The notes under the pieces are model-generated. The model was not told where the DNA came from and ran no database searches. It saw only the letters and a program-made list of their open reading frames with translations. 24,190 nucleotides of DNA from Kouleothrix aurantiaca (lineage in GTDB: Bacteria > Chloroflexota > Chloroflexia > Chloroflexales > Roseiflexaceae): positions 1 to 24,190 of the forward strand of contig LJCR01000003.1 of NCBI GenBank assembly GCA_001399705.1. Reading direction: 5' to 3'. This document shows positions 8,153 to 24,137 of the stretch, one piece after another. Numbering within the stretch: position 1 is the stretch's first letter; the number at the start of each line of letters is the position of its first letter. Made by a program: the position numbers and the translations under genes.

Positions 8153-9916
8153 CTAGGTAGCTTCATCGAGTGCGAACGATAAGAAAGGTGCTTCGCATGC
8201 CATTCTGCCCGCAGAATGGGGATATCTCTTAACTCCGTTCCCATTGCTCCCATTGGGTTCCACTGGCTTCGGCCCTGAGTCCGGTCCCTGCCCATCTGGT
8301 GTATCATCCTCAAGAGCAAGCGGTGTATCTATTCCCCACCAGTGCAAGGTAGCCTTCGGTTTTCCCGCATCGCCATGAACACTCACTGTAACGTTAAGCG
8401 CGTCAATCACCCTGCGCTTCTTCTCGACGGTATCGGCATTTTGTAAGCCTTCCCGAACCTGGTCTCGGTACTCCCAGAATATTACAAGTGACTCGTCATC
8501 GGGAACGGGTAAGAGCGTTGAACTTAAAACCCTGACCTTCTCGACACCTTCCGCAATGGCCTCGTCCAAGCGAGCCAAGACGTTGTGTAGCGCCGTCTTC
8601 GCGCTCGTTGCTTCCTTTGGCAGACTGGCCATCTCTAACCACAGATTTTCCTGCTTGGTGCGCTGGTCGGCAAGAGTGTGCTCCAGATCGGCAATCTTAG
8701 CCTCTGTTGCCGCGTTCTCGCGTCGGCGCTCTGCTTGTGCTTCTTGGAAGCTTGCTAGAATTGCATCAGGGTTCTCGTAAAGTGCCTCGACAAAGCGCCA
8801 GACCGCGTTATCCAGCTTATCTCGGGGAACCGATGGTAACGGGCATCGTTCCTCTTTTGCTAGATAGCTAAGGATGCTCTTTGAACAGATATAATAGGCA
8901 AAAGGACGCCCTTTTGAGCTGCGCATCGAGGGGGTGACAATATTATTTCCGGGTCGCCCTCGATTGGCGCAATGCTCACATCGTATGATGCCGGCCATAA
9001 GGAAGGTTTGCCGATACGCTCCACCGTCACGAAGTACCGAGACATGACCGGCAAGAGCTTCTTGCGCTGCATCAAAGAGAGCGCGGTCAACAATCGCAGG
9101 CAGGGGAACGGGTATCCATTTCTCGCGGGGATTGTACTGGAGATCTTTGCCGTGCGTTCCGGTCGTGCGATTTAGCCAAAGTGTGCCGGCATACGCTTCA
9201 TTCTTTAAGATGCGGTGAAGGATTTTTGGTGTCCAGATGCCGTAATCTTTTCGTTTGCCCTTCTGCATATTAGCTGCTTGGGATGGGGTAGGAACACCCT
9301 CTTTCGTAAGGTCACGGGCAATAGCAAGGATTGCGCACCCATCAGCTACTTCTTTGAAGATGCGGCGGATAGTGACCGCTGCCTCCTCGACAATATGATA
9401 GCGGGTCTCCTTGCGGTCTCCGCTTTTAACATAGCCGTAGAGAGTCGGACCCTGGCCCGGCTTGATACCGTCTTGAACCAAGGCTCGCCGCCCGTTTTTC
9501 ATGACTTCCTTGGCTTTGGTACCCCAATATTGATTGCCCACTGCCTCCATGAGCATAATAAACTCGCCCTCGGGGGAGTCATAATCAACCCGGCCACGAC
9601 TGACAAAATGCAGGTTAACCCGATAGCGCCGCAGTAATTCACTGCTTATCCGGCCGACCACGAAAACGGTACGTGCAAGCCGGTCTCCCGAGAGGCAGAC
9701 GAGGGTATCAGCCTCTTTCTTGGCGATCATCTCGCGGACTTTGTCAAAGCCGGGGCGCTCGAACTCATAGCCGGTGTAGTCATCACGTATTTCCGCAACG
9801 ACCGTAAACCCCTGCACCCGCGCGTACTCAGCACAGCGGCGAATCTGGTCATCAGGTGATGACCCTTTGTTCTGTTCGTCCGAAGAAACCCTGGCATAAA
9901 GAATAGCTCGTGTCAT
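8153..9916 (-). CDS. Large serine recombinase / integrase (587 aa)
   Basis: Site-specific recombinase of the large serine family, which cuts DNA through a 5' phosphoserine and integrates or excises phages and islands. The catalytic domain starts at once: YARVSSDEQ with nucleophile S11, and GDRLAR further on. The recombinase domain follows (LYGYVKSGDRK through TLWLNRTTGTHGK), then a zinc ribbon (CEHC ... C ... C), then a coiled coil rich in Glu, Arg and Lys (about EAQAERRRENAATEAKIADL) and a C-terminal tail. The frame is open to 9961, but the ATG at 9916 has GGAGGGAA upstream and begins the domain. Its start overlaps a small basic ORF by 4 bases. The last 25 or so residues after GNGV look atypical and contain a strong hairpin in the DNA. 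Its 3' end faces the chromosome. Confidence 0.95.
   Translation of the reverse strand: MTRAILYARVSSDEQNKGSSPDDQIRRCAEYARVQGFTVVAEIRDDYTGYEFERPGFDKVREMIAKKEADTLVCLSGDRLARTVFVVGRISSELLRRYRVNLHFVSRGRVDYDSPEGEFIMLMEAVGNQYWGTKAKEVMKNGRRALVQDGIKPGQGPTLYGYVKSGDRKETRYHIVEEAAVTIRRIFKEVADGCAILAIARDLTKEGVPTPSQAANMQKGKRKDYGIWTPKILHRILKNEAYAGTLWLNRTTGTHGKDLQYNPREKWIPVPLPAIVDRALFDAAQEALAGHVSVLRDGGAYRQTFLMAGIIRCEHCANRGRPGNNIVTPSMRSSKGRPFAYYICSKSILSYLAKEERCPLPSVPRDKLDNAVWRFVEALYENPDAILASFQEAQAERRRENAATEAKIADLEHTLADQRTKQENLWLEMASLPKEATSAKTALHNVLARLDEAIAEGVEKVRVLSSTLLPVPDDESLVIFWEYRDQVREGLQNADTVEKKRRVIDALNVTVSVHGDAGKPKATLHWWGIDTPLALEDDTPDGQGPDSGPKPVEPNGSNGNGVKRYPHSAGRMACEAPFLSFALDEAT
8200..8219. repeat. Perfect inverted repeat inside the serine recombinase 3' end
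   Basis: CCATTCTGC and its exact complement GCAGAATGG are separated by two C residues. It lies about 50 bp before the stop codon of the recombinase. There is no T-run on either strand, so it is not a simple terminator. The geometry (inverted repeat around a 2-bp centre) resembles a serine integrase crossover site, but nothing in the sequence proves this. Confidence 0.4.
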
Positions 9917-10062
9917 GAGGTTCCCTCCATAGATGCACGCATTAGACGTATCGTGCGACACTGTAGTTGCTTATAACGAATGGCTTTTCGTCTCCTGATG
10001 AGGGTAAAAGAGCGTAGCGCCGGCGCCATACAGGTTTTTCGCCGCGAACGCTTTTTAGCCAT
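9913..10062 (-). CDS. Small highly basic protein overlapping recombinase start (49 aa)
   Basis: A 49-residue frame from an ATG at 10062, with 16 Lys or Arg residues and a single Glu (start MAKKRSRRKTC). Its TGA overlaps the ATG of the serine recombinase as ATGA, the arrangement of translationally coupled genes, and the recombinase ribosome binding site lies inside it. The frame is open further upstream to 10206. The ribosome binding site at 10062 is weak (AAGAGA, distant). The composition suggests nucleic acid binding. Many serine integrases work with a small basic directionality factor, but this ORF has no recognisable homology to one. It could also be a spurious frame. Confidence 0.4.
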   Translation of the reverse strand: MAKKRSRRKTCMAPALRSFTLIRRRKAIRYKQLQCRTIRLMRASMEGTS

Positions 10063-12027: not shown

Positions 12028-12069
12028 TAGTGAGGCTTCGCTAATGAGCGTTTGGTATTATGCTAAGAT
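12028..12069 (+). promoter_or_regulatory. Promoter and operator-like repeat of the XRE regulator
   Basis: TAGTGAGGCTTCGCTAA (12028-12044) is the second copy of the repeat seen at 11972, here an imperfect dyad with half-sites TAGTGA and TCGCTA. It lies where a -35 would be for an extended -10 box TGC-TAAGAT (12061-12069). Transcription would begin at about 12076, next to the ATG at 12077, which implies a leaderless mRNA and autorepression. Confidence 0.5.
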
Positions 12070-12076
12070 TGGGTTT

Positions 12077-12310
12077 ATGAGTGTGCGACTTCGTGTGCGT
12101 GAACTAGCGGAAGAACGTGGCTTAAACCTTGCGACATTTCAACGCGAGGCTAAGCTTGGTGTATCTACGGCACGCCGGTTGTGGCACAACACGAGTGATG
12201 GCAATCCAAAGGGGCCGCCTCTGCGAAGGCTAGACTACGATTCACTAGAGCTTCTGTGTCGCTTTTTCAAGGTTACCCCCAGCGAGTTGATTGAAATCTC
12301 AGACGACTAG
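12077..12310 (+). CDS. XRE/Cro-C1 family transcriptional regulator (77 aa)
   Basis: A compact helix-turn-helix DNA-binding protein. Helix 1 is RVRELAEERG, followed by NLATFQREAKLG and the recognition helix STARRLWHN, then the family-typical end SLELLCRFFKVTPSELIE. The frame is open to 12044, but I chose the internal ATG at 12077: the conserved domain starts there, and an extended -10 box lies 8 bp before it, so the longer start would be upstream of the transcript. It is divergent from the membrane cassette and very likely controls it and itself through the two TAGTGAGG repeats. Its stop lies 1 bp from the stop of the convergent gene. Confidence 0.88.
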   Translation: MSVRLRVRELAEERGLNLATFQREAKLGVSTARRLWHNTSDGNPKGPPLRRLDYDSLELLCRFFKVTPSELIEISDD

Positions 12311-13306: not shown

Positions 13307-14728
13307 GTGTCGTTAAAGTTTATCGACCTGTTTGCTGGAATGGGTGGGTTTCACCGCGCGCTTTCTCGACTAGGCTTCGAATGTGTTTTTGCCTCAGAGA
13401 TTGACCCCACTCTTCGCGAGGTCTACACGCGTAATTTTGAAGGCTCTATTGAATACGTTTATGGCGATATTCGTGAGAACAAAGACAATATACCTTCGCA
13501 TGATATTCTTTGCGCTGGATTTCCTTGCCAGCCGTTTTCAAAATCTGGTTCACGGCAGGGCGTTCTGGATCAAACGCGTGGAACTTTATTCCACGAAATT
13601 ATTGACGTCTTAAAACGTCACAAGCCGCAATACGTCCTCCTTGAAAACGTAGGCAACTTTGAGCGCCACGACGAAGGAGAGACCTGGAAGATTGTCCGAG
13701 AGAGTTTGGAGAAGCTTGGATATACTGTTCTTGGTACCGAGCATATCAGTAGTGGGGGACCGGGTCTTCTGTCCCCACACCATTTTGGCTACCCGCATTC
13801 GCGGGAGCGTTTCTTCATTGTCGCCAAATTAGGAGGTCTACCAAAAAGGCCGTTCCCTACACCGGACAGACATCACAAGACAAGTCTAGCTTCAATCGCC
13901 CAAGATAATGAGGAGCTTTCAGAGCGAGATAGGGCAGAGACTACGCTCAGTGAAGGGCATCGCAGGTGCATCGAGCATTGGAACAGATTTCTTGAGTATA
14001 TTCCTCAAGATGCAGCACTGCCTTCATTCCCTATATGGGGAGATGAACTAGACGCCACATACCCGTTTGAGAATTCAACTCCGTTTAAGTCAAATAGTCA
14101 GACATTGCGCAAGTCTCTCAACGGTCATGTTGGCAAAGCAACTATGACTCGGGAAGAGATGTTAAAGCTGTTGCCTAGTTATGCGCAAACAAAGGTTATC
14201 CATTTCCCAAAATGGAAAATCGACTTCATAAGGCAAAATCGGGAGTGGTTCAAAAAGCACAGAGAGCATCTTCCACAAGAGTGGATTAACCAATTACGTG
14301 ACTTCCCGGCATCACTGAGAAAGCTAGAGTGGAATTGCCAGGGTGAGCCGCGCGATATATGGGAGTATGTGCTCCAATTTCGACCGTCAGGGTTGCGAGT
14401 AAAGCGATATACCAGCTCGCCAGCACTGGTGGCGATGACAACTACCCAGATTCCAATTCTCGGCCCGAAGCGTCGCTTCTTAACTCGCGTTGAAGGACTG
14501 CTCCTACAAGGATTTCCCCGTACCCATCTCCTTCCTGAGTCACATGAGGCAGCATTCAGGGCTCTTGGCAATGCGGTGCATGTGGATGTAGTAGAGCGAA
14601 TAGCGCGAACCTTTATTTTAGAAGAAGACCAAAACCTTGACATTGCAGCGACAGAATACAAGCAAGTCTCATTTGATGGCCTGGATGATGAGGAAATAGC
14701 CTCGGCGGCCTCACCTACTCACTGCTAA
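13307..14728 (+). CDS. C5-cytosine DNA methyltransferase (473 aa)
   Basis: Transfers a methyl group from S-adenosylmethionine to carbon 5 of cytosine in DNA. Motif I is FAGMGGF at residues 9-15, motif IV GFPCQPFS with nucleophile C74, motif VI ENV at 113-115, motif VIII the SRERFF segment after PHHFGYPH, and motif X GNAVHVDVVERIA near residue 425. Between motifs VIII and IX is a long variable region of about 200 residues that should hold target recognition. The GTG start at 13307 has GGAGG at 7-bp spacing and begins directly in the conserved fold. It is first in the four-gene operon, where it would protect host DNA. The recognition sequence cannot be read from the protein. Confidence 0.95.
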   Translation: MSLKFIDLFAGMGGFHRALSRLGFECVFASEIDPTLREVYTRNFEGSIEYVYGDIRENKDNIPSHDILCAGFPCQPFSKSGSRQGVLDQTRGTLFHEIIDVLKRHKPQYVLLENVGNFERHDEGETWKIVRESLEKLGYTVLGTEHISSGGPGLLSPHHFGYPHSRERFFIVAKLGGLPKRPFPTPDRHHKTSLASIAQDNEELSERDRAETTLSEGHRRCIEHWNRFLEYIPQDAALPSFPIWGDELDATYPFENSTPFKSNSQTLRKSLNGHVGKATMTREEMLKLLPSYAQTKVIHFPKWKIDFIRQNREWFKKHREHLPQEWINQLRDFPASLRKLEWNCQGEPRDIWEYVLQFRPSGLRVKRYTSSPALVAMTTTQIPILGPKRRFLTRVEGLLLQGFPRTHLLPESHEAAFRALGNAVHVDVVERIARTFILEEDQNLDIAATEYKQVSFDGLDDEEIASAASPTHC

Positions 14729-14741
14729 GAAGGGCCAGCTT

Positions 14742-16301
14742 ATGACTTCTACTACTACGTCTCAAACCGTCAATATACGACCCGAGGTTAGCGTCTTATC
14801 GGTATTCCCGCACCTCAACTATAAACCTTGGTATGCAGTTGCGGAGTTTGTCGATAACGCTATACAAAGCTTCTTTACACACCGCCTGGCATTAGCAAAA
14901 GTAGAAGGAGAGCAATTCAGGCTCTCTGTTGATGTTAAGCTCAGCGTTGCTGATGGCGGCCAGATCGTTATTCGCGATAACGCGGCGGGTATTCAAAGTT
15001 CCGAATACCACCGCGCATTTAAAACTGCCGCAGTGCCTCGCGACCGCTCTGGTCTCTCCGAGTTTGGCGTTGGCATGAAGAGTGCGGCGTGTTGGTTTGC
15101 GAACGAATGGTCAGTGCGCACATCGGCACTCGGCGAAGATGTCGAGCGATTTATCACCTTTGATGTCACCACAATCGTTGAAAACTCTATTGAAGAGCTT
15201 ACCTTAAAAGAAGCTCCTGCCTCTTTCAACGATCACTTCACCGAAATCATCCTCCGAAATCTGCATAGCATACCGCAGGGTCGCACGGTTAGTAAGATTA
15301 AAGAACATCTTGCTAGTATTTACCGTATTTTTATCCGTGATGGATTAGTGCAGATAAAGTTTAACGATGACCTGCTTACCCACACTCAGCCAAATGTTTT
15401 AACGGCAAGCTTCTACAAAAATGAAGGCGAGCCACCGCAAGTGTGGCGAAAAGAGATTGCGCTTGATTTTGGGGAAGGGCAGCATGTCTATGGCTTTGCA
15501 GCTCTCCGCGAGACTGCGAGCACATCGGGCGCAGGCTTTGCTCTCTTTCGGCGAAATCGACTGATACAAGGCAGTGCTGACGACGGCTACAGGCCTGAAT
15601 ATATTTTCAAAAAAGCTAACAGCTTTATTTACCAGCGTCTCTTTGGCGAACTGCATGTCGAAGGGTTTGATGTTAGCCATACCAAAGATGGTATTCGCTG
15701 GGCAGAACATGAGGACATTTTCCTTGAATTCCTTAAAGAGAAGCTGAACGAAGAGCCACTACCTTTACTTGACCAAGCGGCGGGATACCGTGTTCGGCCC
15801 AAACAGACAGATTTAAAGAAGGGCGCACAAACCGCGCTGAACACAACAGCTCGCGTAATTGAGGAAGAAGTTCCTCCGGTAATTGAAGGGCAGCTCCAAA
15901 ACGAGCCAGAAGAGAACTCGCCGCCCTTGACGCTTCCTCAAGCGGCGGTTGCGACCGAGCGGGTAATCTCAATTGACTTTGCTGATAATCACTGGAAGGT
16001 AGTCATCGAACTGACTACTGACCCAGCCGTTGGAGATTGGCTCAGTATTTCGGATAGCCCAGCAGTTCAAAATAATAATGAACACGATGGCATGCGACAG
16101 CTAGAAATACGACTATCACTTGCCCACCCCTTTATGGACCGGTTTGCCGGACCAGAGCCTGAGCAGATAGAACCTCTTCTTCGCGTTGCCGCTGGTTTGG
16201 CACTTTCAGAAGTAACGGCGCGTGAGGGTGGTGTCCGGCGAGTTGGCACTGTTCGTCGTTATCTCAATGAACTGCTACGTGAAGCCTTATCAAAACCATA
16301 A
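14742..16301 (+). CDS. GHKL ATPase, MORC-like (519 aa)
   Basis: An ATP-binding protein of the Hsp90/MutL/MORC (GHKL) fold. The N box is E35-FVDNA with E35 and N39, the G1 box is a variant IRDNAAG (residues 77-83) and the G2 box is SEFGVGMKSAACWF (from about 107) with the conserved Lys at 113. Downstream is a second alpha/beta part of S5 type (around FRRNRLIQGS), then a charged, Pro/Glu-rich linker (about residues 370-405) and a C-terminal domain of about 110 residues. GHKL proteins dimerise on ATP and clamp DNA, so this subunit likely senses DNA or gates the nuclease. It begins 13 bp after the methylase, with AAGAAGGG upstream. It is not a histidine kinase, since no H box or receiver is present. 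Confidence 0.9.
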   Translation: MTSTTTSQTVNIRPEVSVLSVFPHLNYKPWYAVAEFVDNAIQSFFTHRLALAKVEGEQFRLSVDVKLSVADGGQIVIRDNAAGIQSSEYHRAFKTAAVPRDRSGLSEFGVGMKSAACWFANEWSVRTSALGEDVERFITFDVTTIVENSIEELTLKEAPASFNDHFTEIILRNLHSIPQGRTVSKIKEHLASIYRIFIRDGLVQIKFNDDLLTHTQPNVLTASFYKNEGEPPQVWRKEIALDFGEGQHVYGFAALRETASTSGAGFALFRRNRLIQGSADDGYRPEYIFKKANSFIYQRLFGELHVEGFDVSHTKDGIRWAEHEDIFLEFLKEKLNEEPLPLLDQAAGYRVRPKQTDLKKGAQTALNTTARVIEEEVPPVIEGQLQNEPEENSPPLTLPQAAVATERVISIDFADNHWKVVIELTTDPAVGDWLSISDSPAVQNNNEHDGMRQLEIRLSLAHPFMDRFAGPEPEQIEPLLRVAAGLALSEVTAREGGVRRVGTVRRYLNELLREALSKP

Positions 16302-16339
16302 TTCTGTAACCGCTCCTACTAGCTTTTAAGAGGCATACA

Positions 16340-18571
16340 ATGTCTGCTACACCAAATAGCCTCAATGCGAAACCCGAGACTGTACGTGTCATCTCAACTC
16401 CTTCGGGAACGCTAGAGACCTGGTCTCCTAGCGCCGGCAAAGAAACCATTGACCTACTTAACGAGCTTAAGTTACCTGACCAGGAGAGCCGAGATAGGCT
16501 TCTTGAAGAAGCCCTCGCTATTCTTCAAAGATGCGTTGCTCCAGATGTCGCGTCGGGGAGTAAAACAGGACTTGCCGTTGGCTATGTGCAGAGCGGTAAA
16601 ACCATGTCGTTTACCATTGTTACTGCGCTGGCCCGTGATAACGGATACCCTATTGTCATCGTTATTGGCGGGATATCCATACCTCTTTTTACTCAGTCAG
16701 AAGAACGTCTTGAGAAAGACCTGCGCCTGAAGGTGCGACCTGATAGAAAATGGAAATACCTATCTAACCCTGGCATAGCACAAAGACAGAGCATTGAAAG
16801 TTCTCTGGCTGAGTGGAAAGACCCTACAGTACCCTTTTCCGAGAAACAAACCGTACTTATCACGGTCATGAAAAATCATACGCACCTTAATAACCTTAAT
16901 AAGTTACTTGAGAAGTTAAATCTCAATCAAGTACCTGTATTAGTTATAGACGATGAGGCTGACCAAGCAGGGTTAAATGCGGGAGTAAACAAAGGTCAGC
17001 AAACAACCACCTATCGTCGTCTGATTAAAATGCGCTCGCTTTTGAAAAACCACTCATTCTTGCAATATACTGCAACTCCGCAGGCTCCTCTCTTGATAAA
17101 CCTTATTGATGTCCTATCACCCAATTTTACGCAAGTGCTTACACCAGGAAAAGATTATACCGGGGGGAAAAACTTTTTTGGTGGCAACATGGAGCTTGTA
17201 CGCATTATTCCTACATCGGATATTCCACCAAGAAACGGCTCACTCCCCGAGCCTCCTCAGAGTCTTCAGTATGCAATGATGCTTTTTTATCTTGGTGTTG
17301 CCTCAGCGTATGCTCAAGGTGAGCTAAAAGGTAATCGTTCGATGATGGTACACCCCTCCCAAAAGACTCTGCCTCATGCGGAGTATGTCAATTGGGTGAG
17401 GAAAACCCAGAAGCTTTTTTTGGATACACTTCAGTTAAGCCCAGGCGATCCAGACCGTGCCGACCTCGTCGCTGATTTCTCAGAGGCGTACAAAGACTTG
17501 CAGGCGACGGTTGTTGACTTACCTGATTTTGACACGCTCCTCAAAAAGCTTGCGCGTGCTATCCGCGCAACTCTCATCACGGAGGTAAACTCTAAACATA
17601 AAGACGGCACGCCTCAAGTAAAGTGGAAAAACGACTACTCTCATATTCTAGTTGGCGGCCAGGCGATGGACCGGGGGTTTACCGTTGAGGGACTAACAAT
17701 AACCTACATGCCACGCGGTTTAGGTACTCGCACTGCTGACACTATTCAGCAGCGAGCGCGATTTTTTGGATATAAACAGGACTATGTCGGATACTGCCGG
17801 GTGTTTGTAGAAAATGATACCCGCGACGCATTTAGGGCGTATGTAACTCACGAGGAAGATATCCGCTCACGGCTTACCGATCACAGCAATACCAATAAGC
17901 CGCTCTCGGAATGGAAGCGAGCGTTTTTTCTCGACCCCGGGCTGAAGCCGACAAGAAAAAGCGTGCTTGACCTAGCATATCTTCAGGATGACTATAGTGA
18001 TGATTGGTTTGAGCCTGACTCACCACACGATAATCCTGAAGCTGTCGTCTCTAATCGAGTGGTTGTAAAAGAGTTTCTTGCAAAGCTCACTTTGGTGGAT
18101 GATGAAGGTCATAAAGACCGAACACCTATACAAAGGCATAAGGTAGTCCGTAATGTGCCGCTTAAGGAAACAATGGAGCAATTGCTTGCTCAGTTGCGGG
18201 TCACAAGACTAAGCGATTCACAGCGTTTTACCGGCATAATGCTGCAAATAGAAAGATTTCTGGATGACAATCCAGAAGCAACGAGCACCATCTATCACAT
18301 AAGTGGTGGAATAGAACGAGAGCGAGCCGTTGACGCTCAAGGCAAAATTCCCACCCTCTTTCAAGGCCCGCATCCCGATAAAAAGGGTGCTATTTACCCA
18401 GGTGACCGTAATATACGGGACGTGAGGGAACTAACAATACAAATCCATAATTTACGAATTAAAGAGGGTGATGATGAATACCCAGGAGTACCAGCTATTG
18501 CGGTGTGGGTACCAGCGGCAATGTCTAACCCTTGGCTCAGTCAAAACCAGGGCGGTACAAATAAGGTGTAG
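16340..18571 (+). CDS. Z1-domain superfamily II helicase (743 aa)
   Basis: A large ATP-dependent DNA translocase of the Z1 type. Walker A is GYVQSGKT at residues 81-88, motif II is DDEAD at 204-208, motif III is YTATP at 243-247, motif V lies around GQAMDRGFTVEG (440-451), and motif VI is QQRARFFGY at 470-478. The N-terminal 70 residues and the region after about 500 are family-specific. Z1 helicases occur almost only in predicted restriction systems next to MORC-like ATPases. AAGAGG precedes the ATG. The next gene starts at the base after its stop. It is the motor that would move along or remodel target DNA for the nuclease. Confidence 0.93.
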   Translation: MSATPNSLNAKPETVRVISTPSGTLETWSPSAGKETIDLLNELKLPDQESRDRLLEEALAILQRCVAPDVASGSKTGLAVGYVQSGKTMSFTIVTALARDNGYPIVIVIGGISIPLFTQSEERLEKDLRLKVRPDRKWKYLSNPGIAQRQSIESSLAEWKDPTVPFSEKQTVLITVMKNHTHLNNLNKLLEKLNLNQVPVLVIDDEADQAGLNAGVNKGQQTTTYRRLIKMRSLLKNHSFLQYTATPQAPLLINLIDVLSPNFTQVLTPGKDYTGGKNFFGGNMELVRIIPTSDIPPRNGSLPEPPQSLQYAMMLFYLGVASAYAQGELKGNRSMMVHPSQKTLPHAEYVNWVRKTQKLFLDTLQLSPGDPDRADLVADFSEAYKDLQATVVDLPDFDTLLKKLARAIRATLITEVNSKHKDGTPQVKWKNDYSHILVGGQAMDRGFTVEGLTITYMPRGLGTRTADTIQQRARFFGYKQDYVGYCRVFVENDTRDAFRAYVTHEEDIRSRLTDHSNTNKPLSEWKRAFFLDPGLKPTRKSVLDLAYLQDDYSDDWFEPDSPHDNPEAVVSNRVVVKEFLAKLTLVDDEGHKDRTPIQRHKVVRNVPLKETMEQLLAQLRVTRLSDSQRFTGIMLQIERFLDDNPEATSTIYHISGGIERERAVDAQGKIPTLFQGPHPDKKGAIYPGDRNIRDVRELTIQIHNLRIKEGDDEYPGVPAIAVWVPAAMSNPWLSQNQGGTNKV

Positions 18572-19576
18572 ATGATGATTGAGCTGGACACTCTCTTTGA
18601 GAACTTAACGCGGCCGGTTGCTGATGCACAGCAAGATGTCTTATATTCGGCAATTAGTATACCCGGTTATGAGCCGCATCGACTTGCAAAAGATCACGAA
18701 GGGGCTCCTGCGCTACTGATAGCAACCAGGGGAGCGCCTCGTCAATATTCGGCAACGCGTATCAGCTTAGAGCATCTTCAGGTACTGCACAACGCAGAGT
18801 GTGTCATATCTGGGGAGCACGGACTGCGTGAAACAGGCCGATTTAGTATAGTTCGCTGCGCTACCAGTGACACCCTAATTCAGCGACATTTTCTTCGTAT
18901 GCTCGTTGGAGTGCTTGGTGTGCTTGGACAGGAGCCAAGTCCCGAGGAAGTATCAAGGGCAATTAATAACCTTGTCGAGTTATTCCGAGTTATGGTTGAA
19001 CCTGCTCGTAAAACCGTTCAAGGGTTTTGGGCAGAACTCTTGGTAATTGCTTCTTCGACAGAGCCGATATTACTACTCGACGCTTGGCACACTACCCCGC
19101 ATGATGTCTATGATTTTAACTCGGGTCATCAGCGGCTAGAGGTCAAAAGTGCGCGCGGTCGGCAGCGTCAGCATCACTTTGCGCTCACTCAGTTGACACC
19201 TCCTGAAGGGGCGCGGGTTATTATAGCTTCAATGCTCGTAGAGCCTGCCGGAGCAGGGGTATCGATTGCAGACCTACTTGGTGAAATCCGTACCAGAATT
19301 AACGTAAGACCAGACCTCCTCATTAGACTGGAGCAGATAGTCTACGCTACGCTTGGTGAGACCTGGCGGCGAGCATTTGAAATGCAATTTGACCGCGAGC
19401 TTGCACAGCAGTCTTTGAAGTTTTTTGACGCGGCAAAGATACCTGCTGTTTCCCTTGCTTTCCCCGCAAGTGTGAGTGATGTTCACTTTAAATCCGACCT
19501 TAGCAACATTCCAAGCCTTCCAAAACAAAGTCTCCGCTCAGCAGGAGAGTTATTTCTTGCAGCCCTTCCTCGTTAA
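18572..19576 (+). CDS. PD-(D/E)XK nuclease, DUF4420 type (334 aa)
   Basis: Predicted DNA endonuclease of the restriction-endonuclease fold. The active-site pattern is visible: E155 in GFWAELLVIA, D181 in VYDFNSGHQ, and E190-V-K192 in RLEVKSARG, followed by a Gln/His-rich strand (QRQHHFALTQL). The N-terminal 140 residues are a separate domain likely to contact the partners. Length is usual for the family (PD-(D/E)XK motif protein, Pfam DUF4420). The ATG is directly after the helicase stop, with another ATG one codon on, and its ribosome binding site lies within the helicase gene, so translation is coupled. It is the cutting subunit of the system. Its stop is 2 bp from that of the convergent S-4TM gene. 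Confidence 0.88.
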   Translation: MMIELDTLFENLTRPVADAQQDVLYSAISIPGYEPHRLAKDHEGAPALLIATRGAPRQYSATRISLEHLQVLHNAECVISGEHGLRETGRFSIVRCATSDTLIQRHFLRMLVGVLGVLGQEPSPEEVSRAINNLVELFRVMVEPARKTVQGFWAELLVIASSTEPILLLDAWHTTPHDVYDFNSGHQRLEVKSARGRQRQHHFALTQLTPPEGARVIIASMLVEPAGAGVSIADLLGEIRTRINVRPDLLIRLEQIVYATLGETWRRAFEMQFDRELAQQSLKFFDAAKIPAVSLAFPASVSDVHFKSDLSNIPSLPKQSLRSAGELFLAALPR

Positions 19577-19578
19577 AG

Positions 19579-20415
19579 CTACGACTGTGTCGCTCGTTGA
19601 TCCCACAACTCATTCAGTTCTTTCTGCTTCATTTTCCATAGCCACTCTGGCAAGAGCGGGGAACCTGCTCGCGCGATGTGATAATCATGGACAACCTTGA
19701 TAGCCTCGCTCTCAGTGAGGTCAGGTTTATCCTTAAGGGAGTGCGCCTTATCCTCCGCCCACTCAGCTGCATACGCCAGCCGGTTGTAGTCATCTGCCAA
19801 GCGAATATATCCACCAGAGAATACAAAGGCGATAACTGAGATTGTAACCTTGGCAATGTTGTTTGCCGTGGTCTGGCTGAGCGCGCTTTGAAGCGATACT
19901 ATCAGGATAATAATCGCAACGCCAACCACGGCACAGCTAAAGATTGCTGCATACCACGCCATAGGTCGAGCCTGATGCTTTGTCCACCAGGCGCTTTCTT
20001 CAAGGTTTTGTAGAAGCCGACGCGGGGACGGTGGCTCCTGAGATGAGAAATAATTTTCTGGAAGCCCTGCCGTCTTCTCAGCCTGTTGCTTAACTCGCTT
20101 CGGAAGCGTTGCTATGATATCAGAGATTTCGCGAGGTTTGATTGCCCAGTCTAGCCCCTTCGCCATTTCTATTTTTCTAAGAATCGAGTTTGCCGTACTT
20201 TTCAGTCGGTCTGAGTACCATTGTGCCAAAGGTTGAGCAATGGTCAGTATGACTGCAAAAAATGCCAAAACCCCGGCATTAGCAGTAATAAATAAGGCCA
20301 CAGCATTTATAACAACGATAAGGAAGCGGCACAGCGATGCAGTGGTCCACCAAAATTTGGTGTAGCTAAACTGTGCCTTCATAAGTGCTTCGACGTTTAT
20401 ATTTGGTTGTTTCAT
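19579..20415 (-). CDS. S-4TM membrane effector of CBASS (278 aa)
   Basis: SMODS-associating 4TM effector. Two helix pairs lie at about residues 27-43 and 47-64 and at 152-174 and 186-204, separated by a charged cytoplasmic segment. The C-terminus has the family-typical AGSPLLPEWLWKMKQKELNELW. Such proteins are thought to open or damage the inner membrane when bound by the cyclic nucleotide from the partner CD-NTase, killing the infected cell. The frame is open to 20475, overlapping the upstream gene, but the ATG at 20415 has GGAG upstream and lies 20 bp after the CD-NTase stop, so I chose it. The two genes form one operon. Confidence 0.85.
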   Translation of the reverse strand: MKQPNINVEALMKAQFSYTKFWWTTASLCRFLIVVINAVALFITANAGVLAFFAVILTIAQPLAQWYSDRLKSTANSILRKIEMAKGLDWAIKPREISDIIATLPKRVKQQAEKTAGLPENYFSSQEPPSPRRLLQNLEESAWWTKHQARPMAWYAAIFSCAVVGVAIIILIVSLQSALSQTTANNIAKVTISVIAFVFSGGYIRLADDYNRLAYAAEWAEDKAHSLKDKPDLTESEAIKVVHDYHIARAGSPLLPEWLWKMKQKELNELWDQRATQS

Positions 20416-20435
20416 ATAACTACCGTTCTCAACTC

Positions 20436-21434
20436 CTAACCGTAAGAAGGAAAGTCGTGGAATATGGCCTTCCACCAGTCAAAGGCCGCTTTATGGTCAT
20501 CTTTGCGCTCTTTCTCCAGCGCGTTGTTCGCCCATCCAGACATCTTTGCCGAGATAGTATTAACCTTATTTCGTACATCCCATGAGAGTCCCTCATCTAA
20601 GTTGGGTCCTAGCTGTTTGGGGTCGGCGCAACTAAATTGTATTGACGAAGCAAGCACTGCAAAAGCAGTTGGTATACTTCCTCGAATTCCCTGTAAGGGA
20701 TTGTAACTTACGAATCCGTTTATAAGTATGGTTTCAAGTAAATATGAGCTGATAGTTGGAACATCATAATATCGAGCATTCCAATGTTTGATTATCCTAA
20801 TAATCGGAATAAGGTTTTTGTTATGATATTGATTGGCGTCGGTAATTGCTTTCTTGTCGCGACGAGGATCGGTTCTTGTCCAGCGCCCATAGCCATCTGG
20901 AATTAAGTAATGCGAAATACCTCCCATGTTATCTCCTATTGGGAAGGCGGGAACAACATCAAACGCCCAAGGGTATGAGGCTAATTTTAGGACGACCGCA
21001 ACATTATTTCGTTTTATGTCAGCCTTTTGATAGTTTGGTACTTTTGATAAGGAATCCTTAATCTTATTCAAAATCCTGGTTGAGTTAAGATATGCGTCAT
21101 TGTCATTTGTATATCTATATAAAGGAGAGGACGAGTCTGAAATGAGAATGGAATAGGTATAGCCACTATAATACTCTTGAACTGTATGTTTACCATTTAA
21201 TAGAAGTAGCATATCAATGTCATTGAGCGGGCGTACTTTTGTTTTTCGCGCAAAAGAACCATAGGGCATATATCCTCCATAAAGCGGAGGAAAGTATGCA
21301 TCGCCGGAAGCAATTGAGGAGATTTGCTCCTTAAGATAATCGCGGCTTCTGAGTGCCTTGTCTGTCTCGTCTGGATCTAAATCGACGACGTTCTCGCGAA
21401 AGTAGGTGAAAGCACTTGGAACAGTTGTCGGCAT
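20436..21434 (-). CDS. CD-NTase (SMODS nucleotidyltransferase) of CBASS (332 aa)
   Basis: A cGAS/DncV-like nucleotidyltransferase, which makes a cyclic di- or trinucleotide alarm signal on phage infection. The active site is intact: G59-S60 in YGSFARKT, the metal pair D72 and D74 in NDIDM, and the third acid D159 in AFDVVPAF. The family name SMODS covers this domain. GAGG lies upstream of the ATG, and a TATACT -10 box lies at 21450-21455. The gene is AT-richer than its neighbours, which suggests separate transfer. There is no ubiquitin-like Cap2/Cap3 pair or HORMA/TRIP13 regulator, so this would be a minimal type I CBASS. The nucleotide product cannot be predicted here. Confidence 0.9.
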   Translation of the reverse strand: MPTTVPSAFTYFRENVVDLDPDETDKALRSRDYLKEQISSIASGDAYFPPLYGGYMPYGSFARKTKVRPLNDIDMLLLLNGKHTVQEYYSGYTYSILISDSSSPLYRYTNDNDAYLNSTRILNKIKDSLSKVPNYQKADIKRNNVAVVLKLASYPWAFDVVPAFPIGDNMGGISHYLIPDGYGRWTRTDPRRDKKAITDANQYHNKNLIPIIRIIKHWNARYYDVPTISSYLLETILINGFVSYNPLQGIRGSIPTAFAVLASSIQFSCADPKQLGPNLDEGLSWDVRNKVNTISAKMSGWANNALEKERKDDHKAAFDWWKAIFHDFPSYG

Positions 21435-21616: not shown

Positions 21617-21907
21617 ATGCTTATTGAACGCCTTATTTGGGACACTTGGAACCGAGATCATATCGCTCAGCACGACGTAACACCCGAGGAAGTTGAGCAG
21701 GTAATCAGTAACGAGTATGTATTCTTTCCCAGCTACAAGGGGCGGGTTGTTGTTATTGGACTGACCGATACTGGAAGGGCGTTGCATATCACCCTGGCGA
21801 CACACGGAGTAGAGACGTATTACGTCGTTACAGCTCGGGTCGCAGACCGCAAGGAGCGAGCATATTATCAGAAATACAAAGATGAACAACAGGAGGTGAG
21901 TGTATGA
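21617..21907 (+). CDS. brnT: BrnT-family toxin (96 aa)
   Basis: Type II toxin of the BrnT (DUF497) family, RelE-fold ribonucleases that stop translation. The start MLIERLIWDTWNRDHIAQHD and the following VTPEEVEQVI match the family pattern (W-D-x-x-N-x-x-H-x-x-x-H, then TPEEVE), and the core RVVVIGLTDTGRALHIT and the late RVADRKERAYY are the usual strand and basic segment. Length is normal. It overlaps the antitoxin start by 4 bases (ATGA), the typical toxin-first brnTA layout. A strong promoter with an inverted repeat lies just upstream. It may stabilise the island in the host. Confidence 0.9.
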   Translation: MLIERLIWDTWNRDHIAQHDVTPEEVEQVISNEYVFFPSYKGRVVVIGLTDTGRALHITLATHGVETYYVVTARVADRKERAYYQKYKDEQQEVSV

Positions 21908-22197
21908 CAGACAGTAGCGTTACCAAAAAAGATAGAGTACCTGCTTTCAAAACTATTGAGGAAGAGGCTAAATTTTGGGACACTCATAGCGTCCTAGATT
22001 ATCTGGATGAATTTGAGCAGCCTCAATTCGTCTCAAAAAAGAAGCAATCCCAGGGGATCACTGTCCGCTTTGAACCGGAAACACTGGCAGAGCTGCGCGC
22101 CTATGCGCAAGAGCAGGGGATTGGGCCGACAACCCTAATGCGTATGTGGGTTTTAGAACGCCTTAAAGTAGTGAAACGGCAGCACTTCGGAAAGTAA
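21904..22197 (+). CDS. brnA: BrnA-like CopG/ribbon-helix-helix antitoxin (97 aa)
   Basis: Partner of the BrnT toxin. The N-terminal half is acidic and probably flexible (FKTIEEEAKFWDTHSVLDYLDEF), the part that would wrap the toxin. The C-terminal half is a ribbon-helix-helix DNA-binding domain (GITVRFEPETLAELRAYAQE, then GIGPTTLMRMWVLERL), which would dimerise on the inverted repeat at 21588-21606 and repress the operon. It belongs to the CopG-antitoxin type found with BrnT. The gene overlaps the toxin by 4 bases with its ribosome binding site (AGGAGG) inside the toxin gene. Its stop lies 12 bp from the stop of the next convergent gene. Confidence 0.87.
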   Translation: MTDSSVTKKDRVPAFKTIEEEAKFWDTHSVLDYLDEFEQPQFVSKKKQSQGITVRFEPETLAELRAYAQEQGIGPTTLMRMWVLERLKVVKRQHFGK

Positions 22198-22929: not shown

Positions 22930-23234
22930 CGTTATAACACTCCGTATTACTGCGTCACATTGAGCAATATTTTAGCATTATTCAGCTTCCTGTGCTGCTT
23001 CGTGTTTTGCGAATATCTGCTTTTTAGAACGTCGGGTTCCCATAATCCCTCTTCTCGGTAGCGCCCCCTGACCATTCCGTGCTCGACCTCCCTCTGTGAT
23101 GGTTCCAAATAATTTGCTACACTACACGTTATCGGAACCATAATTTATAGACCTTGTTGGATTGTGGGGGCCACGTACCAAGGGGTAGGATAGGGACATA
23201 TCAGCAGCGTTTGCAGAAAAGTTAGGAGGTGTTT
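22930..23234. other. Gene-free region before the tyrosine recombinase
   Basis: About 300 bp without a convincing gene; a minus-strand frame at 22947-23141 has no family signature. It carries a cluster of GGTTCC motifs (see the repeat entry). AGGAGG at 23224-23229 serves the recombinase start. If the recombinase acts on its own element, its binding or crossover site may be here. Confidence 0.4.
23035..23141. repeat. GGTTCC motif cluster upstream of the tyrosine recombinase
   Basis: GGTTCC-CATAAT (23035-23046) and GGTTCC-AAATAAT (23101-23113) are direct repeats. A third copy is inverted: GGAACCAT (23134-23141) pairs exactly with ATGGTTCC (23099-23106) across 27 bp. Such spaced direct and inverted copies are typical of recombinase arm sites or regulator operators. 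Which one applies is not shown. Confidence 0.45.
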
Positions 23235-24137
23235 ATGGATACAGCACAATTTGGAAGTAAGGAACCGATTGTTCAAAGCATTGATGCGTTCCTGCGGTGC
23301 CTCGAAGGGAAAAACCGCAGTGAAGCAACACGCCATGCGTATGAGACTGACCTCTTACAGTTCTATCTCTGGCTCAAAGACAATAACAGTTATGCAACTT
23401 CTCCTGAGAAGATTACGAAGACTGATGTCACCGAATTCCTGACGGCCTGTGCTCGCCGTGGTCTCTCAGGCGTCTCACGGGCGCGCAAGCTGGCCGCGAT
23501 TCGCGAATACTACCGCTACCTCGTTGACCATGAAGTCATCGTTAAGTCGCCGACCACTGGCGTTGCTACTCCCAAGCGAGAGCAGAATATTAGAAAGCAT
23601 CTCGCGCCACACGAGTACCATAGTATGCTGGTGGCCGCTGCTGGCAGTCCTCGGGACTATGCTATCTTGCAGGTCTTCTTGCAAACAGGTTTGAGGGTCT
23701 CGGAGCTATGTGCCTTGCGATTTTCAGATTTAGAAATGAGCGCCCGACCATATCCGTTGTTGCATGTGCGCCTGGGCAAAGGGATGCGCGCTCGTACCAT
23801 TGCGCTTGAGAAGAAGGTCGCCCAAGCTCTCAAAAATTACCGGGCGCAGAGGCCAGATAGCACAAGCGATGCCGTGTTTCTGAACCACTATGGTGAGTCG
23901 ATCGGGGAGAGGGGCGTACGAAAGATTGTCGCCAAGTATGTCCAGGCGTCGGGTATTACCAAGCGCATAAGCCCACACAGCCTACGCCACACCTTCGCTA
24001 CACAGAAGGCGGAGAAGGGTGTCAGCACCTACCAGCTCCAGGAGTGGCTTGGTCACGCCAATCTGAACACCACACAGGTCTATGTTCACCTGGCAAAGCA
24101 GAGCGGGGGAAAAGTCATGGAGCAGACAAGTTTATAA
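23235..24137 (+). CDS. Tyrosine recombinase, XerC/D-like (300 aa)
   Basis: Site-specific recombinase that joins DNA through a tyrosine intermediate. The N-terminal SAM-like core-binding domain covers about residues 10-100 (TRHAYETDLLQFYLWL). The catalytic residues are visible: R in TGLRVSEL, K in GKGMRARTI, H and R in HSLRHTFAT, H in LGHANLNTTQ and the Tyr in TQVYVHLAK. Length is typical of XerC/D-type enzymes. The frame is open two codons earlier, but the ATG at 23235 has AGGAGG at 5-bp spacing. It forms the right flank of the island. It may belong to this island or to a nested element, and host dif recombination is less likely given its context. Confidence 0.95.
   Translation: MDTAQFGSKEPIVQSIDAFLRCLEGKNRSEATRHAYETDLLQFYLWLKDNNSYATSPEKITKTDVTEFLTACARRGLSGVSRARKLAAIREYYRYLVDHEVIVKSPTTGVATPKREQNIRKHLAPHEYHSMLVAAAGSPRDYAILQVFLQTGLRVSELCALRFSDLEMSARPYPLLHVRLGKGMRARTIALEKKVAQALKNYRAQRPDSTSDAVFLNHYGESIGERGVRKIVAKYVQASGITKRISPHSLRHTFATQKAEKGVSTYQLQEWLGHANLNTTQVYVHLAKQSGGKVMEQTSL

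Follow-up and report, generated by a model that had tools for sequence, protein, structure and literature searches.

The locus and its four genes

The 24,190-nucleotide stretch of Kouleothrix aurantiaca DNA analysed here (contig LJCR01000003.1, positions 1 to 24,190; hereafter the window) contains, at 13307..19576, four forward-strand genes which, judged by their sequences, constitute an intact bacterial defence operon of a type predicted in 2008. The first gene (M; 13307..14728, 473 amino acids from a GTG start) encodes a C5-cytosine DNA methylase (PF00145, E 3.6e-64) with a catalytic part at approximately residues 1–172, including the catalytic cysteine C74, and a target-recognition domain (TRD) at approximately 176–388. 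Its nearest solved relative is the HhaI methylase (E 2e-39), and the family TRD profile matches it with an E value of 1.4e-72. The second gene (G; 14742..16301, 519 amino acids) encodes a MORC-type GHKL ATPase (PF13589, E 7.7e-14) with E35 and N39 present, an S5-like part and a C-terminal part to which no fold is assigned. It is followed by a superfamily 2 (SF2) helicase gene (Z; 16340..18571; PF10593, E 2.8e-38; PADLOC Helicase_II, E 6.7e-49), whose product carries Walker A, DDEAD and QQRAR motifs, and by a gene for a putative PD-(D/E)XK nuclease of the DUF4420 family (N; 18572..19576, 334 amino acids; PF14390, E 5.9e-27). Residues E155, D181, E190 and K192 are all present in N, and E155, D181 and K192 are invariant in 62 of 62 sequences. 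A first-pass annotation had described four closely spaced genes with intact catalytic motifs and had proposed a profile search of each product; the description was borne out, and the search returned the four Pfam families given above.

Searches with the single sequences found no solved relative for Z (E≤0.1), N (E≤1) or G (E≤0.1). At the profile level, DUF4420 gave a single match among solved structures (E 0.58) and MzaC-like gave none, while MORC gave five, among them HtpG (the best, E 0.0021), one MutL (0.015) and one 14-3-3 protein (0.089).

Assignment to a predicted operon type and conservation among relatives

Iyer, Abhiman and Aravind (2008; PMC2292703) defined MORC by the motif GhXhhpXXRhl in the S5 domain, and their third MORC operon type combines an SF2 helicase carrying DThhQXuRhFG, a restriction-fold protein with an E-D-ExK signature and, frequently, a cytosine methylase. 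On sequence grounds the window operon belongs to this type, because the MORC motif (GFALFRRNRLI, at position 265 of G), the helicase motif (DTIQQRARFFG in Z, agreeing at 10 of 11 positions, with Q at an h position) and the nuclease signature (E155, D181 and E190xK192 in N) fit its definitions. The frequent cytosine methylase is likewise matched, both by M in the window (PF00145) and by M in 75 of 80 related loci, and the tie to the MORC operons of that prediction, already drawn in the first-pass annotation, holds for all of these features. No difference in kind was found from the type as set out in the available text of that paper, which is a prediction and in which swapping of the methylase or nuclease within the type is not reported. 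Across the related loci the MORC motif occurs in 72 of 77 G proteins versus 4 of 682 other open reading frames of at least 300 amino acids, and a relaxed form of the helicase pattern in 46 of 81 Z proteins.

These loci come from a search of genome contigs with Z, which confirmed 120 places, 80 of which were analysed. G is present in 76, N in 67 and all four genes in 66, so that the co-occurrence in other genomes on which the first-pass annotation depended is found. Gene order, window included, is M-G-Z-N in 65 loci and G-Z-N-M in two (L014, L038), and median intergenic gaps are −1, 3 and −4 bp (62 operons). The contig titles of four-gene loci include Acidobacteriaceae, Nitrospiraceae, Hydrogenedentota, Dehalococcoidia, Acidimicrobiia, Verrucomicrobiaceae, Levyibacteriota, Nocardioides, Treponema, Flavobacterium, Planctomycetaceae and Azospira; the type is widespread, and the window copy adds one example to it. 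G and Z occur without N in nine loci, three of which (L026, L040, L042) stop at or within 0.3 kb past Z, and in L037 and L069 an HNH_2 protein directly follows Z.

Proposed function and alternative explanations

The operon is probably a restriction-modification system, as its predicted proteins suggest. G and Z, two ATP-using proteins, would control the DNA-cutting enzyme N, and M would mark the cell's own DNA by methylation. At the level of the family, comparison of the relatives suggests a rule in which G-Z-N would be inherited together as an engine, the methylase would be replaceable within one TRD family, and the nuclease would be replaceable too.

Several observations weigh against this proposal. 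Among the G, Z and N trees there is mutual rejection as well, weaker than that between them and the M tree, and N shows single swaps. Z stands alone, without M, G or N, in L004, L005, L006 and L010, and in four of the 80 loci (L002, L012, L022, L053) M-G-Z is followed by no recognisable nuclease, even in a relaxed profile search. Support for HNH replacement is thin, L037 and L098 both being from Hymenobacter, and is weakened further by the divergent TRD of L069 (E 5.7e-24). One TRD family need not imply one target, and a search for segments of G, Z and N that coevolve with the TRD found no restriction-side target reader. The restriction complex of the first-pass annotation is, overall, partly supported.

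Two candidates arising from the searches for target and reader were rejected. In a comparison of palindrome depletion between 72 system loci and 15 control loci, CTCGAG had the lowest z among six-base palindromes (observed/expected ratio 0.48), yet its depletion does not discriminate because the ratio is 0.56 in the controls. MORC residues 241–280 gave a partial correlation of 0.38 as a possible reader, but in tree distances the correlations were 0.60–0.80 for all segments, with none prominent.

An alternative that we consider unlikely, though worth weighing, is that the G-Z-N engine senses the structure or replication of phage DNA rather than cutting at a methylation-protected site, with the methylase an attached partner for secondary tuning or protection. 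The M tree is indeed very different from those of G, Z and N; in the sister MZA class G, Z and N come in this order too, together with AIPR, and one of its loci, L083, carries an unrelated methylase of its own; and Hachiman, a helicase-nuclease system, is described in the source available as sensing DNA damage. Against this, 74 of the 76 G-bearing loci carry a methylase from a single TRD family, the exceptions being L045, which begins inside G at a contig end and lacks M, and L038, which has another methylase. It seems very improbable that this genome carries the operon as a remnant, silent or decaying: the assembly to which the contig belongs is indeed fragmented, and its contamination is 7.5%, but the four frames are full length, all catalytic residues are retained and the spacing resembles that of relatives. 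Least probable of all, and barely credible, is membership of the MZA anti-phage system itself, since G and N have no PADLOC Mza match at E≤0.001, Z matches MzaC in part only (73.9 bits in PADLOC; 82.5 bits against an NCBIfam cut-off of 1500), and the gene after N is a convergent one of CBASS type, with no AIPR seen there.

Comparison with other defence systems

Gao et al. 2020 is reportedly given alongside for MZA. The name stands for MzaABCDE (PMC9523054, in the text available); homologues of MzaB, MzaC, MzaD and MzaE above model cut-offs were not found in the window, whereas the control locus L083 matches all four. A mechanism shared with MZA is possible. CglI and NgoAVII are described, in the portions available, as having a PLD nuclease with a B3 target reader and no MORC protein (PMC4267653, PMC5737866); no such nuclease was found in the window, where the nuclease gene is DUF4420, and the methylase in a Neisseria gonorrhoeae stretch, NgoAVII by inference, lacks the TRD family of the window M. 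A PADLOC scan of 10 window proteins found, among the matches listed (25 of 60 families), no signature protein of BREX, DISARM or Druantia besides the methylase, which resembles the DruM and DrmMII models; the difference from BREX and DISARM claimed earlier stands to that extent. In VcSduA, the GHKL-Shedu of Vibrio cholerae, with demonstrated phage protection, a GHKL ATPase is likewise thought to control a PD-(D/E)XK nuclease (PMC12137116, as far as the available text goes).

Neighbouring genes in the window and among relatives

A pair of the CBASS (cyclic-oligonucleotide-based anti-phage signalling system) type lies tail to tail with the DUF4420 gene, 2 bp away, on the reverse strand (19579-21434), comprising a SMODS cyclase (20436-21434) and a four-transmembrane effector (19579-20475). 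Beyond it, on the forward strand (21617-22197), are genes for a BrnT-like toxin (E 3.2e-6, under the Pfam cut-off) and a CopG-type antitoxin that overlap by 4 bp. The defence block is flanked by a large serine recombinase (8153-9961, reverse strand) and an XerC/D-like tyrosine recombinase (23229-24137, forward strand), and may be a mobile island; a direct repeat bounding it was looked for and not found. A small Cro/C1-type helix-turn-helix gene (12044-12310, forward strand), approximately 1 kb upstream of the methylase gene, is a possible controller.

Among the relatives, 27 of 39 scanned proteins encoded directly downstream of DUF4420 contain an MTaX1 (methylase-associated X1) domain, for example L046:13176-13883 and L067:13207-14976, as the fifth gene of one branch; the window has none. 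In L091 (10132-10893) and L095 (10064-11020) the DUF4420 end is overlapped by genes for an HhH-GPD base-excision protein and an Exo_endo_phos protein; these may be partners in the repair of deaminated 5-methylcytosine. MORC homologues also occur in L105 (5761-10305, forward strand) and L106 (522-5204, reverse strand), in operons with N6_N4_Mtase, a ResIII helicase and an unassigned protein of 262–275 amino acids.

Implications

The type is already known; what is new are testable construction rules obtained by comparing relatives. Two questions become testable in this way: whether the methylase of one operon shields DNA from another operon's engine, and whether HNH-bearing and DUF4420-bearing operons restrict the same site. 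The role of a bacterial MORC ATPase that sits next to a helicase and a nuclease has been a question since the 2008 prediction or earlier, and it bears on where the MORC chromatin proteins of eukaryotes came from.
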